Source of the DNA: a virus
Length of the DNA stretch: 24,417 nt
Strand: one strand, 5' to 3'
Virus record (IMG/VR): IMGVR_UViG_3300032240_000481
Span: 1 to 24,417 of that record
The notes beneath the pieces are model-generated. The model did no database searches. It saw nothing but the letters and a program-made list of their open reading frames with translations, and was not told the DNA's origin. Shown here piece after piece: positions 2,180 through 7,688 of the stretch. The translations under genes and the position numbers were made by a program. Positions within the stretch are counted from its first letter, which is position 1, and each line of letters begins with the position of its first letter.

Positions 2180-2722
2180 TTGCCCACATATTTTGACCTT
2201 CGATTGTGTGGGGTTATTGGGTGTGGATAGCGTGGGCGCGATTGTGGGCGTGTTTGGGGCTATTGTGGACAACGTGCCATTGACCGGGCTTAAGAGTGAA
2301 AACTATCATTTGTGGACAATGTGGACTACTTTAAATGATACGCTAGATGTTATGTGTTGTTGTAATACTAAGTAACTATACAGTATGTTGTAAGGCTCAC
2401 GATTCCTCACACCACGCCATTTGGCGAGCGATTGAAAAGTGGTGTCCACATTGTCCACATTGTCCACAAATTGATCGGCGCATGTTCATGGCCACATGGC
2501 CGATGACCCCGGCCAACGAGCCACCGGGTTGTGTGGACACTGCCCACATGACCCCCCACCAAAGTACTACGTTGTAAGGTTCTGTAAGGTTAGCGGCCGC
2601 GTGCTGGATGGCCGTTTGCTTTCGGCGCGAGGCCCCCGGGTAGGGCCGGCGGCCGAAGGTCACGGAAGCGGAGGGGCCACAAACAAAATTTTTTATAGCC
2701 CACATTGCCCACATGACCCACA
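2180..2722. repeat. Array of 9-base DnaA-box-like words (TTGTCCACA family)
   Basis: In the CCACA orientation I read sites at 2180-2188, 2442-2450, 2451-2459, 2460-2468, 2540-2548, 2696-2704, 2705-2713 and 2714-2722. In the opposite orientation (TGTGG) they are at 2222-2230, 2243-2251, 2264-2272, 2311-2319, 2320-2328 and 2532-2540. Exact TTGTCCACA or its complement occurs at 2264, 2311, 2451 and 2460; the others vary mainly at the first four positions. Two groups of three (2442-2468, 2696-2722) and one pair (2311-2328) are head-to-tail without any spacer. TTGTCCACA is one base from the E. coli DnaA box TTATCCACA and equals the box used by some GC-rich bacteria. They could be DnaA sites, iterons for a phage initiator, or operators. 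Confidence 0.75.
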
Positions 2723-2843: not shown

Positions 2844-3287
2844 ATGTTTGAAAGCCTACCTTTTGCACCGCGCAAGGTCGAAGCGACTGAGGCGCGTTTG
2901 CACCGCATCTACGAAGCCGCCAAGCTGGGGCTGAAAGGCGACTCGTTGGCGTTGGCGTCAGGCATGTTGCCATCCGAGTACCGGCAACTGGTGCAGCTTG
3001 ACCCCATCGCGGAGATGGCAGCGCAAAAGGGCAAAGCAGACGCTGAGATGGAAATGTCGCAGTGCCTGCACAAGGCAGCGCGAGAAGGCGACTCTAAAGC
3101 GGCGTTGGCAATCCTGCAAAACGTCCACGGCTGGGTGGCCAAGCAATCTATCACTATTGATGTTGACCAGCGCATCTCAGTCACCCAGGCGCTGCGCGAT
3201 GCTGAGTCTCGCGTCATTGACGTCATCGCCCATGAGCCCAGCCCCAAACTAGACCTAACACATGCAGAGCACCAAATACAGCGCTGA
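2844..3287 (+). CDS. Terminase small subunit
   Basis: The ATG at 2844 is preferred to the adjoining TTG at 2841; AGGAG lies 5 bases upstream. The 147-residue product would recognise the phage DNA for headful packaging and hand it to the large subunit. It opens with a helical segment (MFESLPFAPRKVEATEARL), then AAKLGLKGDSLALASGM (about residues 25-41), which reads as a helix-turn-helix DNA-binding segment, then a long charged helical region (AEMEMSQCLHKAAREGDSKA) probably used for oligomerisation. Its position directly before, and 26-base overlap with, the large subunit supports the call. Sequence alone does not allow a choice between cos and pac packaging; P22-type neighbours favour pac/headful. 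Confidence 0.8.
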   Translation: MFESLPFAPRKVEATEARLHRIYEAAKLGLKGDSLALASGMLPSEYRQLVQLDPIAEMAAQKGKADAEMEMSQCLHKAAREGDSKAALAILQNVHGWVAKQSITIDVDQRISVTQALRDAESRVIDVIAHEPSPKLDLTHAEHQIQR

Positions 3288-4785
3288 AGACGAACAAGAG
3301 CTGATGGCCCGGCTGTGGAGCCCGGCGATCAAGGACAACCCGTTGGCGTTTGTAATGTTTGCGTTTCCATGGGGCGTCAAGGGTACGCCGCTGGAGAACT
3401 TCACTGGCCCGCGCAAATGGCAGCGCGAGGTGCTGCTAGACATCGCCGAGCACATCAAACTGAACCAAGGCAAAGCAGACTTTGATGTGCTGCAAGAAGC
3501 CATCTCATCTGGCCGGGGTATTGGCAAGTCGGCGCTGGTCTCATGGATCACGATCTGGATGTTGGCCACCAGGATAGGGTCAACGACCATCATTTCGGCC
3601 AACAGTGAGTCTCAGCTCAGGTCAATTACCTGGGCCGAAATCACCAAATGGCTGGCCATGGCCATCAACTCACACTGGTTTGAGGTGTCAGCCACCCGCG
3701 TCATGCCGGCCAAGTGGCTGACTGAGCTGGTCGAGCGGGATTTGAAGAAGGGCACCCGGTACTGGGGCGTGGAAGGGCGGCTGTGGTCAGCCGAAAACCC
3801 CGACGCTTACGCTGGTGTTCACAACTTTGACGGTGTGCTGGTGGTTTTTGACGAAGCGTCTGGTATTGACGACTCGATCTGGGCGGTGACCGGTGGTTTC
3901 TTTACAGAAAACACGCCAAACCGCTTCTGGTTGGCGTTTTCCAACCCACGGCGCAACACCGGGTACTTTTACGAGGCGTTTAACTCAAAAAGAGCATTTT
4001 GGCGTACCCGAATCGTGGACGCCAGGACGGTCGAAGGCACCGACAAGGCGGTTTACAACCGAATTATTGACGAATATGGGCCTGACTCATCCCAAGCGCA
4101 CGTTGAGGTCTACGGCATGTTCCCCAGTGCGGGCGATGACCAGTTTATTGGCGCCGACATAGTGGACGACGCCATGGCCCGGCCCAAGTACAAGGACGCC
4201 AGCGCGCCAATTGTGATCGGCGTAGACCCAGCGCGGTTTGGAGCGGACGCAACGGTGATTGCGGTGCGCCAAGGGCGGGATATTGTCAAGATCATGCGCC
4301 ACAGGGGCGACGACACCATGACGGTGGTGGGGTATGTGATTGAAGCGATTGAAGAATTTAAGCCTGCGCTGGTCGTGATCGACGAAGGCGGGCTGGGCGC
4401 GGGTATTGTGGACAGGTTGAAAGAGCAGCGATACAAGGTCAAAGGCATAAACTTTGGAAATAAATCCAAAAACCCGATCATGTACGGTAATATGCGCGCG
4501 CAGATGTGGGGAGATATGCGAGAATGGCTGAAATCTGCTAGTATCCCTAGCGACAGGTTCTTGAAGACGGACTTGATTTCGCCTATGATGAAGCCTGACT
4601 CACGGGGAACAATCTTCTTGGAAAGCAAAAAGGAAATGAAAGCTCGCGGTCTTGCCTCACCCGACGCTGCTGACGCTATTTGCGTCACGTTTGCCTTTCC
4701 AGTGGCACATCGTGAATATGTCGAACCCAAGCGCACCGCTAGAAGCTACGGTAGCGCAGTGTCTACAGGATGGATGGGGTCATGA
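3262..4785 (+). CDS. Terminase large subunit (packaging ATPase and nuclease)
   Basis: A 507-residue two-domain packaging motor. The N-terminal ATPase has a Walker A loop GRGIGKS at 84-90 and a Walker B strand VLVVFDEA at 192-199 with Asp197-Glu198. The C-terminal RNase H-like nuclease shows its acidic residues in VIGVDPARFG (Asp322), VVIDEGG (Asp374) and SPDAADA (Asp468, Asp471). The length is normal for the family. The start overlaps the small subunit gene by 26 bases, and the stop overlaps the next gene in an ATGA junction, so translation of the packaging genes is probably coupled. The protein docks on the portal encoded at 5505, drives DNA into the prohead and cuts the concatemer. Confidence 0.95.
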   Translation: MQSTKYSAEDEQELMARLWSPAIKDNPLAFVMFAFPWGVKGTPLENFTGPRKWQREVLLDIAEHIKLNQGKADFDVLQEAISSGRGIGKSALVSWITIWMLATRIGSTTIISANSESQLRSITWAEITKWLAMAINSHWFEVSATRVMPAKWLTELVERDLKKGTRYWGVEGRLWSAENPDAYAGVHNFDGVLVVFDEASGIDDSIWAVTGGFFTENTPNRFWLAFSNPRRNTGYFYEAFNSKRAFWRTRIVDARTVEGTDKAVYNRIIDEYGPDSSQAHVEVYGMFPSAGDDQFIGADIVDDAMARPKYKDASAPIVIGVDPARFGADATVIAVRQGRDIVKIMRHRGDDTMTVVGYVIEAIEEFKPALVVIDEGGLGAGIVDRLKEQRYKVKGINFGNKSKNPIMYGNMRAQMWGDMREWLKSASIPSDRFLKTDLISPMMKPDSRGTIFLESKKEMKARGLASPDAADAICVTFAFPVAHREYVEPKRTARSYGSAVSTGWMGS

Positions 4786-5036
4786 AAAAAGTTTCTTTGA
4801 GCGTTGGTCGCGGCGAAAAGTTGCCGGTGTCCAAGGGCGCAGGTCTGACTGAGAAAGGCCGCGCTAAATACAACGCTGCTACGGGCTCCAACCTTAAGGC
4901 GCCAGCACCCAACCCTAAGACCAAAGCGGATCAGGGTCGCAAAGATTCATTTTGTGCAAGGATGGAAGGCGTTGTAAAGCATGCCAAAGGCGATGCCGAA
5001 CGCGCTAAAGCGTCACTCAAACGATGGAAATGTTAA
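4782..5036 (+). CDS. Small basic protein (DUF6321-like), 84 aa
   Basis: The ATG at 4782 overlaps the terminase TGA and has AGGATGG 8 bases upstream; an alternative ATG four codons earlier is less likely. The product is very basic and Gly/Ala-rich. It has an ordered set of motifs: VGRGEKLPVSKGAGL, GRAKYNAATGSNLKAP, then KDSFCARMEGV and a C-terminal SLKRWKC. From memory this is a conserved family of phage and bacterial small proteins (DUF6321), function unknown. The conserved cysteine-aromatic ends and Lys content suggest nucleic-acid binding. It is the first of four tiny basic genes between terminase and portal. Confidence 0.8.
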   Translation: MKKVSLSVGRGEKLPVSKGAGLTEKGRAKYNAATGSNLKAPAPNPKTKADQGRKDSFCARMEGVVKHAKGDAERAKASLKRWKC

Positions 5037-5037
5037 T

Positions 5038-5190
5038 ATGGCTACTAAACCCGGCTTGTATGCCAACATCCACGCCAAACAGGCACGTATCGCCGCCGGC
5101 AGCAAAGAGAAGATGAGGAAGCCAGGTTCGCCTGGCGCGCCCACTGCCAAAGACTTCAAAGATTCAGCCAAAACTGCAAAGAAGAAGTAA
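5038..5190 (+). CDS. Small basic protein, 50 aa
   Basis: ATG at 5038 lies one base after the previous stop. The product begins MATKPGLYANIHAKQARIAAG and ends in KTAKKK; about a quarter of its residues are Lys or Arg, with Gly/Pro-rich linkers (RKPGSPGAPTAKDF). I recall the MATKPGLYANIHAKxxRIAAGS...MRKPG layout from many environmental phage genomes, always unannotated and near the packaging genes. It is probably an unstructured, nucleic-acid- or capsid-associated peptide. A longer upstream start at 4981 would overlap the previous gene and is rejected. Confidence 0.75.
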   Translation: MATKPGLYANIHAKQARIAAGSKEKMRKPGSPGAPTAKDFKDSAKTAKKK

Positions 5191-5191
5191 C

Positions 5192-5329
5192 ATGCCGCTT
5201 GTCAAATCCAAATCTCCCGAAGCATTTCGCAAAAACATTAAGGCCGAGGTCAAAGCGGGCAAGCCCGTTAAGCAGGCCGTGGCAATTGCGTATGCAGTCA
5301 AACGTGCAGCCCCGAAAGGAAAGAAATGA
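5192..5329 (+). CDS. Small basic protein, 45 aa
   Basis: ATG 5192 to TGA 5329 gives MPLVKSKSPEAFRKN followed by IKAEVKAGKPVKQAVAIAY and a basic tail (VKRAAPKGKK). It starts one base after the preceding stop, and its TGA overlaps the next ATG. The layout S-x-EAF-x-KN-x(2)-AE-x-xAGKPxKQAVAIAYxVKR is one I recall from many phages and bacteria as a recurring short conserved protein of unknown function. It is probably helical, positively charged and DNA- or RNA-binding. Confidence 0.75.
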   Translation: MPLVKSKSPEAFRKNIKAEVKAGKPVKQAVAIAYAVKRAAPKGKK

Positions 5330-5505
5330 GCAAGACCCTCGCCCCTATTGCTAAACTGAACAGCCGCGAACCCAAGATGTCGGGCGCTGGCATGCCAGCA
5401 CGCAACAAAGAGACTTACTCTCCATCTGCGCCTTGCCATGCCACGATTCCATCGGGCAACAATGTCAAGGCAACGGTGGACAAAGTCCTTAACAAGATCA
5501 AATAA
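5326..5505 (+). CDS. Small basic protein, 59 aa
   Basis: The gene starts at ATG 5326 in a four-base overlap with the previous stop and ends with TAA at 5505, whose last base is the first base of the portal ATG. The product begins MSKTLAPIAKLNSREPKMSG and ends ATVDKVLNKIK. It is moderately basic, low in hydrophobic residues and probably largely unfolded. It is held in place by overlaps at both ends. The family is not recognised, and the function is unknown. Confidence 0.7.
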   Translation: MSKTLAPIAKLNSREPKMSGAGMPARNKETYSPSAPCHATIPSGNNVKATVDKVLNKIK

Positions 5506-7688
5506 TGGCAGATTACACAGGCATTGCGGCTGCTGGCGCAGTGGCCGAAGGCGGTAAACCTAAAAAGAGCGCGTCTGACATCTTGGCCACAGCCCGTGCC
5601 AGGCTTGATCTGGCGGTGTCCGCGCTATCTGAAAGCCGCGAAGATGAAATTGACGATCTGAAGTTTTACGCCGGCTCGCCCGACAACCACTGGCAGTGGC
5701 CCGCCGACGTGCTGGCCACCCGTGGCGCGGTGCAGGGCCAGACGATCAACGCCCGGCCTTGTCTGACGATCAACAAGCTGCCCCAGCATGTGCGCCAGGT
5801 CACCAACGACCAGCGCCAGAACCGGCCGGGGGCCAAGGTTATCCCGGTGGATGACAACGCCGACGTAGAAGTGGCCGACATTTTCAACGGCATGATTCGG
5901 CACATTGAGTACATCAGCGACGCCGATGTGGCCTACGACACTGCTTGTGAAAACCAAGTTTCTTACGGCGAAGGTTATCTTCGCTTGCTGACCGAGTATT
6001 GCGACGACAACACGTTTGACCAAGACATCAAGATTGGCCGTGTGCGCAACTCTTTTTCGGTCTATATGGATCCAACCATCCAAGACCCAACTGGCGCAGA
6101 TGCCAAATGGTGCTTTGTTACTGAAGACGTAACCAAGGCCGAGTTTGAGCGGATGTATCCTGACGCTGCGCCCATTACAACGCTGCAATCGCTGGGTGTG
6201 GGCGATCAATCGATCAGCAACTGGCTCAATGAAGACACGATCCGCATCGCAGATTACTACTACATTGACTACGACCGCACGACGCTGAACCTGTACCCCG
6301 GCAACGCTACGGCGTTTGAAGGTACGCCAGAAGACAAGCAACTGCGGGCGATTTACGGCAAGCCTAAGAAATCACGCGAGTCTGACCGTCCAAAGGTCAA
6401 ATACTGCAAGATCAATGGCTACGAAATTCTTGAAGAGCGCGAGTGGGCGGGCAAATACATTCCCGTGATCCGCATTGTGGGCAATGAATTTGAGGTTGAC
6501 GGCCGTTTGTATGTGTCGGGTTTGGTGCGCAACGCCAAGGATGCCCAGCGCATGTACAACTACTGGGTGTCCCAAGAAGCCGAGATGCTGGCCTTGGCGC
6601 CCAAAGCCCCGTTTATTGGCTACGGTGGTCAGTTTGAGGGCTATGAAGACAAATGGAAAACGGCCAACACGCAAAACTGGCCGTATTTGGAAGTCAATCC
6701 AGACGTTACAGACGGCCAAGGCGGCATGTTGCCATTACCCCAGCGGGCACAGCCGCCAATGGCCTCCAGCGGCCTATTGCAGGCCAAGGCGGGGGCGTCT
6801 GAAGACATCAAGAGCACCACCGGTCAATACAACGCATCTTTGGGCATGGGTTCCAACGAGCGTTCGGGCAAAGCCATCCTTGCGCGCCAGCGCGAGGGCG
6901 ACGTAGGTACTTACCACTATGGGGACAACTTGGCCCGTGGCGTGCGCCATGTGGCCCGTCAATTAGTGGACTTGATCCCCAAAATTTACGATACTCAGCG
7001 CATCGCTCGCATTATCGGTGAAGATGGCGAGACCAAGATGGTCAAGATCAACCCTGATCAAGAGCAGCCGGTCAACAAGATTGTTGATGAACGCGGGGTT
7101 GTGATGGAGAAAATCTACAACCCAAGCGTCGGCAAGTACGACGTGGTGGCAATCACTGGCCCAGGCTACGCGACCAAACGTCAAGAGGCACTGGAAGCAA
7201 TGGCACAACTGTTGCAAGGCAATCCTCAACTGTGGGCTGTGGCCGGTGACCTGTTTGTCAAGAACATGGATTGGCCAGGCGCCCAAGAGATGTCCAAGCG
7301 TTTTGCCAAGACCATTGACCCCAAATTCTTGTCGGACGGTGAGGACAACCCGGCGTTGCAAGCGGCCCAACAACAAATGCAGGCCATGGGCGCTGAGATG
7401 GAGCAGATGCACACGATGATTAAAAACGTGGGCAAATCCATTGAGATGCAAGAGCAAGAGCGCAAGGATTTTGAGGCCCAGGTCAAGGCGTATGAAGCTG
7501 AAACCAAACGCATTGCTACGGTGCAAGCCAGCATGTCACCAGAGCAAATTCAAGATATAGTCTTGGGTACAGTGCACGGCATGATCACGTCTGGCGATCT
7601 GGTCAGCGAGATGCCTGGCCGGGAGCAGAATGAGATGATGCCTGAGTCGGCTGAATATGCGCCTCAACAACAAGGGATGCCACAATGA
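5505..7688 (+). CDS. Portal protein, P22-like
   Basis: The 727-residue length matches the P22 portal (725). The dodecameric ring sits at one capsid vertex; DNA enters and leaves through it, and it binds the terminase and later the gp4-like adaptor. Recognisable segments are LSESREDEIDDLKFYAG near residue 41, RPCLTINKLPQHVRQVTND at 84-102 with the following NRPGAKVIPVDD, and SGKAILARQREGDVGTYHY near 452-470 leading into a DNLARGVRH helix and DLIPKIYD. The last ~120 residues are Gln/Met/Glu-rich and helical (QQQMQAMGAEMEQMHTMIKN), like the P22 portal barrel. TerL lies upstream; scaffold and coat follow only after a 4-kb insert. Confidence 0.95.
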   Translation: MADYTGIAAAGAVAEGGKPKKSASDILATARARLDLAVSALSESREDEIDDLKFYAGSPDNHWQWPADVLATRGAVQGQTINARPCLTINKLPQHVRQVTNDQRQNRPGAKVIPVDDNADVEVADIFNGMIRHIEYISDADVAYDTACENQVSYGEGYLRLLTEYCDDNTFDQDIKIGRVRNSFSVYMDPTIQDPTGADAKWCFVTEDVTKAEFERMYPDAAPITTLQSLGVGDQSISNWLNEDTIRIADYYYIDYDRTTLNLYPGNATAFEGTPEDKQLRAIYGKPKKSRESDRPKVKYCKINGYEILEEREWAGKYIPVIRIVGNEFEVDGRLYVSGLVRNAKDAQRMYNYWVSQEAEMLALAPKAPFIGYGGQFEGYEDKWKTANTQNWPYLEVNPDVTDGQGGMLPLPQRAQPPMASSGLLQAKAGASEDIKSTTGQYNASLGMGSNERSGKAILARQREGDVGTYHYGDNLARGVRHVARQLVDLIPKIYDTQRIARIIGEDGETKMVKINPDQEQPVNKIVDERGVVMEKIYNPSVGKYDVVAITGPGYATKRQEALEAMAQLLQGNPQLWAVAGDLFVKNMDWPGAQEMSKRFAKTIDPKFLSDGEDNPALQAAQQQMQAMGAEMEQMHTMIKNVGKSIEMQEQERKDFEAQVKAYEAETKRIATVQASMSPEQIQDIVLGTVHGMITSGDLVSEMPGREQNEMMPESAEYAPQQQGMPQ

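Follow-up and report, generated by a model that had tools for sequence, protein, structure and literature searches.

The alpha protein of phage P4 is a primase-helicase with a C-terminal origin-binding domain, and its type I iterons occur at ori and crr in both orientations. In PICI/SaPI origins, an AT-rich region lies between two sets of iterons (PMC6092414), and these are recognized by the C-terminal domain of a primase-helicase that loads itself (PMC7581432). The NrS-1 primase-polymerase has an 8-nt template motif present twice, a tail fold called novel, and no iteron array (PMC7102993). Work on the PLE RepA/iteron modules and the origin-directed nuclease of ICP1 has shown that an initiator DNA-binding domain covaries with its origin and that the two are exchanged as one module (PMC8263062).

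The window analyzed here (24,417 nucleotides, the whole of the stretch taken from virus record IMGVR_UViG_3300032240_000481) contains a noncoding array of short direct repeats that very probably constitutes the iterons of the phage replication origin, read by the phage's own primase-helicase. Fourteen 9-mers of the form NN[GA][TC]CNA[CT]A lie between 2180 and 2722, eight on the plus strand (starting at 2180, 2442, 2451, 2460, 2540, 2696, 2705, and 2714) and six on the minus strand (2222, 2243, 2264, 2311, 2320, and 2532). Exact period-9 spacing without spacers is found at 2311–2328, 2442–2468, and 2696–2722. These counts, orientations, and tandems are the same as those given by a sequence-only reading of this DNA, which had also correctly placed the array between divergent transcription units and without a credible gene. 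Small minus-strand genes lie to the left and the terminase operon to the right, where terminase, portal, and P22-type head genes are found, and no ORF inside the array is credible. Nine of the 12 copies of TGYCCACA in the window sit within 2161–2730. With up to one mismatch, TTGTCCACA occurs nine times in 2161–2760, compared to 0.26 expected from dinucleotide shuffles (maximum of 3 in 1,000) and 0.30 per 600 bp over the remaining window sequence, so the word is not frequent outside the array. A nucleotide search of the array against phage records returned chance matches only, and Rfam, tRNA, and terminator scans gave no match.

Features of the array region and adjoining terminase genes, in window coordinates
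Feature	Position	Strand	Basis or remark
Outlying unit TTGCCCACA	2180–2188	+	9-mer scan
Left iteron arm (units 2222, 2243, 2264, 2311, 2320)	2222–2328	−	2311–2328 is a spacerless pair
AT-rich core between arms, candidate unwinding element	2329–2441		Composition
Right iteron arm, spacerless GTGTCCACA TTGTCCACA TTGTCCACA	2442–2468	+	Further units to 2548
Inverted unit pair, minus 2532–2540 with plus 2540–2548	2532–2548		9-mer scan
GC-rich element GGGTAGGGCC..ACGG..GCGGAGG..CAAACAAATTTTTT	2629–2694	+	Alignment of 15 loci
Terminase-proximal period-9 triple TAGCCCACA TTGCCCACA TGACCCACA	2696–2722	+	Period-9 spacing
Putative terminase small subunit (TerS)	2844–3287	+	Position, overlap with TerL; no family match
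Terminase large subunit (TerL)	3262–4785	+	PHROG 2

The AT-richest 50 bp of the core (2330–2379) are 74% AT, compared to a window mean of 48%, and the inverted unit pair is also kept in eight relatives (L001, L002, L004–L008, and L062). A search of IMG/VR with TerL yielded 80 close relatives, and added primase searches brought the set to several hundred loci, of which 176 distinct loci were analyzed for the array. Upstream of the terminase genes in these 176 loci there are 2,941 lag-9 repeats of 9-mers, compared to one in control DNA of equal length. The AT-richest 50 bp of the array region average 80% AT versus 65% elsewhere. Units to the left of this stretch are mostly on the minus strand (369 versus 112 plus) and those to the right mostly on the plus strand (668 versus 170 minus), so that in the window and in its relatives alike an AT-rich stretch is flanked by two iteron sets. 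Of nine relatives with records of 32–43 kb, eight have tandem units at a single place, unlike the two separate sites of P4; the ninth has a different unit. Seven matching MAG contigs in a genome collection carry mostly betaproteobacterial labels, with one labeled actinobacterium and one Mucilaginibacter. They are likely binned viral fragments, and no host was therefore assigned.

The place of the array is conserved, but its letters are not, so the conservation among related phages that the sequence-only reading had set as a test holds for the array and often fails for the unit. The 9-mer varies by lineage (TTGTCCACA, TTGCCTACA, CTGCCAACA, TAGCCGACA, TGACCCAAA/T, TTGTCCATA, and others), and within the frame T1T2G3T4C5C6A7C8A9, bases 4, 6, and 8 vary most. 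Between the array and the terminase genes, most relatives also conserve the GC-rich element followed by AACAAATTTTTT. About 15 relatives carry a second array in the iteron-to-terminase interval, made of GTTAGT-4-ACTAAC palindromes (37 at spacing 4 and 8 at spacing 8; L012, L015, L016, L019, L024, L025, L031, L034, L037, L041, L043, L046, L048, L050, and L280), which look like repressor operator sites. The window has TGTAAGG repeats at 2387, 2571, and 2583, in a position similar to that of these palindromes.

A primase-helicase gene lies left of TerL, in the same order and on the same strand, in all 213 loci carrying both, and the array is present with it in every one. The distance from the end of the primase gene to the start of TerL has a median of 3.5 kb, with the minus-strand operon between them. 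The window contig ends about 3.5 kb left of TerL, short of this gene, which is why the sequence-only reading did not see an initiator. In L001, a close relative of the window (TerL 99%), the primase-helicase is encoded at 4240–6510 and adjoins a family A DNA polymerase. It is barely credible that the units are instead sites of a small DNA-binding protein from the minus-strand operon: HTH-like small proteins do occur there at some loci (HTH_31-like in L085, DnaA_C in L084), but the most widespread family of the operon is present in only 101 of 176 loci, compared to array and primase in all 213. Since none of these small HTH proteins is universal, they were rejected as the reader. The operon commonly includes a DUF7227 protein (PF23872), found in the window at 1174–1830 on the minus strand.

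The primase-helicase of the relatives is of the PrimPol/D5 type, with an AEP-like primase, a D5/NrS-1-type helicase, and a C-terminal winged helix; in these relatives, the array and an AEP/D5-type primase-helicase whose C terminus is a DNA-binding domain thus belong to one replicon. Its sequence profile matches NrS-1 at an E value of 2e-10. An AlphaFold model of residues 636–756 combines helices with a helix-turn-helix and a wing of two strands (pLDDT 85), and residues 725–730 fall in the predicted wing hairpin. Foldseek found no PDB match at E ≤ 0.001 for the isolated C-terminal domain, and the weak matches were mostly winged helices. The full model (pTM 0.38) matches the NrS-1 CTR (Foldseek, 1e-14), poxvirus D5/E5, African swine fever virus PrimPol, DNA-bound SaPI PriRep1, and an AEP primase domain. 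The NrS-1 primase-polymerase (6k9c/6lrb; PMC7102993) is the closest solved relative of the helicase part; unlike NrS-1, the present phages have an iteron array.

Alignment of the primase-helicases revealed that the last strands differ along with the unit, at residues 725, 727, and 730 (L001 numbering), which belong to the wing of the winged helix at the C terminus. Across 130 loci, residue 727 and base 8 agree without exception: arginine occurs with C (96/96) and glycine, serine, or alanine with A or T (34/34). In a scan of all primase columns against base 8, R727 ranked first (0.85 of 0.88 bits). Residues 725 and 730 go with base 4, where a K..D wing accompanies T. Three or more [TA][GA]TCCA[CT] words are present in 56 of 58 loci with K725 and in 3 of 117 loci without it (114/3/2/56; Fisher P = 1.8e-39, uncorrected for kinship), and all 54 loci with D730 carry at least four. 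The exceptions with K725 and no T units are L044 and L247. When every primase column was scanned for the T versus non-T distinction, D730 (0.84 bits) and K725 (0.81 bits) stood out of a possible 0.92, with the next column at 0.42. On a phylogeny of the remaining primase sequence, up to residue 660, 13–14 of 15 independent unit-class contrasts agree with K725 and none is opposite; for R727, nine of nine contrasts agree. Predictions were made for a second set of 76 loci, whose arrays have <5% of 60-mers in common with those of the first and whose proteins are often closely related to it. Base 8 was predicted correctly in 51 of 51 scorable loci (only one being a non-R case). For base 4 the prediction was right in 42 of 47; all five failures were arrays dominated by CCC that go with a K..D wing. 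The window array itself mixes T and C at base 4, and such mixed arrays indicate that reading of this base by the K..D group is not strict. For base 6, which is A, C, G, or T depending on lineage, the primase column scan yielded no single reader column outside those that mark clades. As judged by covariation, the unit letters are shown to be set by wing residues 725, 727, and 730 of the phage primase-helicase, and it is by covariation that the C-terminal domain is assigned as reader of the iterons. The window's own initiator is predicted to have a GR[IL]KSR..[DE]TKKH wing. M725 primases are accompanied by units of the GACTA or GTCATGT type (L241, L242, L261, L278, L279, L282, L283, and L284), and M725 is a possible further letter of the code.

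The terminase genes show no comparable pattern. Because the array adjoins TerS, and because the GC-rich element and the triple nearest TerS do not covary, the array might be a packaging site bound by the adjacently encoded small terminase subunit. We consider this very unlikely, given that the best columns for the T versus non-T distinction reach only 0.29 bits in TerS and 0.27 bits in TerL, compared to 0.84 bits in the primase. In addition, TerS is 95%–97% identical between L003/L029 and L001/L002, yet their units differ. TerL is 99% identical in the same comparison and each unit is accompanied by the matching wing; unit and wing therefore change together while the terminase stays constant. 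TerS and TerL were rejected as readers of the T class, since neither has a tracking column and the unit does not follow TerS residues as it should at a pac or cos site. A narrower role is conceivable for the two non-covarying elements. The terminase-proximal triple stays GCCCACA where the other units of a lineage have changed, and hence does not covary with the wing. Together with the GC-rich element, for which a packaging site or a terminator are candidates and at which no intrinsic terminator was called, it may serve in packaging or transcription.

The sequence-only reading had also suggested that the phage borrows host DnaA. To our knowledge, DnaA-box specificity is nearly universal in bacteria, and TTGTCCACA is one letter off TTATCCACA; a distant relative (MW202483) even encodes a DnaA-domain-IV-like protein (PF08299, 1e-17). 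However, about 110 of 165 classified relatives have units other than TCCACA, and those found at the same place, such as CTGCCAACA, TAGCCGACA, and TGACCCAAA, are not DnaA boxes. The unit follows primase residues instead, and a near-universal specificity could not follow units that change. Recruitment of host DnaA to a phage origin is thus highly improbable, and host DnaA is refuted as a general reader because the DnaA-box consensus is not kept across the units of relatives. The reading is therefore borne out in part: the array is real, of iteron or operator type, and probably a phage origin for a phage initiator encoded beyond the window, whose wing the unit tracks, but its suggestion of host DnaA does not hold. 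The DnaA_C-like protein of MW202483 was likewise dismissed as a general reader, as no such family is general. That protein stands alone at L084:7083–7379, and MW202483 has a putative origin region with GTTTACATAAAC and ACTACCAAC repeats.

Covariation supports binding of the units by the primase-helicase. It identifies the reader of the unit and not the start of replication, and autoregulation would yield an equal signal. The array could accordingly be an operator through which the primase-helicase, or a winged-helix relative, controls the divergent minus-strand and terminase promoters while replication starts elsewhere. Such an operator would suit the position between divergent units, and ordinary-looking palindromic sites are present in the same region of the relatives described above. 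Even so, we regard it as unlikely: no strong promoter was called, and an AT-rich core with inverted arms and a self-loading-helicase reader are features of origins (PMC6092414). Units that flank an AT-rich core in opposite orientations, with a C-terminal reader, follow the plan of PICI/SaPI origins. As in the pri-rep-ori regions of SaPI Rep, SaPI5 PriRep1, and the E. coli PICIs (PMC6092414, PMC7581432), short iterons form two sets with an AT-rich middle, the C-terminal domain of a primase-helicase or Rep is the reader (here as predicted from covariation), and iterons differ where alleles differ. P4 alpha likewise has an origin-binding domain at its C terminus, with iterons in either orientation. 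Unlike the PICI/SaPI systems, the present phages are a P22-like podovirus family with spacerless 9-bp units, their array is beside the terminase genes and about 3.5 kb from the initiator gene, and the code is resolved to residues by covariation. The covariation of initiator DNA-binding domain and origin resembles that of PLE RepA modules, which differ in having a RepA_N initiator of unrelated fold, two groups only, and no residue code (PMC8263062).

Several observations count against an origin. SaPI origins adjoin rep, whereas here about 3.5 kb, including the minus-strand operon, separate the primase gene from TerL, and the array is not directly downstream of the initiator gene; an initiator-adjacent origin is true of SaPI/SCC and is no requirement of the mechanism. 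The terminase-proximal triple does not covary. No GC-skew extremum lies at the array in the window, in four partial relatives, or in one complete genome, and the minimum that the sequence-only reading proposed to look for is not there. GC skew at the array is uninformative and neither supports nor excludes an origin. If the array fires as an origin, which we infer from its layout and reader, the winged helix would bind the units, one per 9 bp, and the primase-helicase would assemble on both arms. The AT-rich core would then melt and the helicase load itself, after which the phage PolA-type polymerase, encoded just upstream, would take over.

An abundant, uncultured family of freshwater phages thereby gains a predicted origin and initiator. 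Among the loci, initiator specificity has switched no fewer than ten (base 8) to twenty (unit class T) times, and the corresponding change in the DNA can be seen next to it. With such a dataset it becomes directly testable how an initiator alters jointly with a dozen scattered sites while replication is kept. The loci also caution against taking every DnaA-box-like array in a phage contig for a set of DnaA boxes. We give roughly even odds to the proposal that the phages fall into mutually exclusive replication-specificity groups, in which the wing code (727 for base 8, 725 and 730 for base 4) has repeatedly been switched in concert with as many as 14 scattered origin units, perhaps in response to origin-recognizing parasites or nucleases. 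If these specificity groups are true, they would constitute a natural, readable code of winged-helix/DNA recognition.
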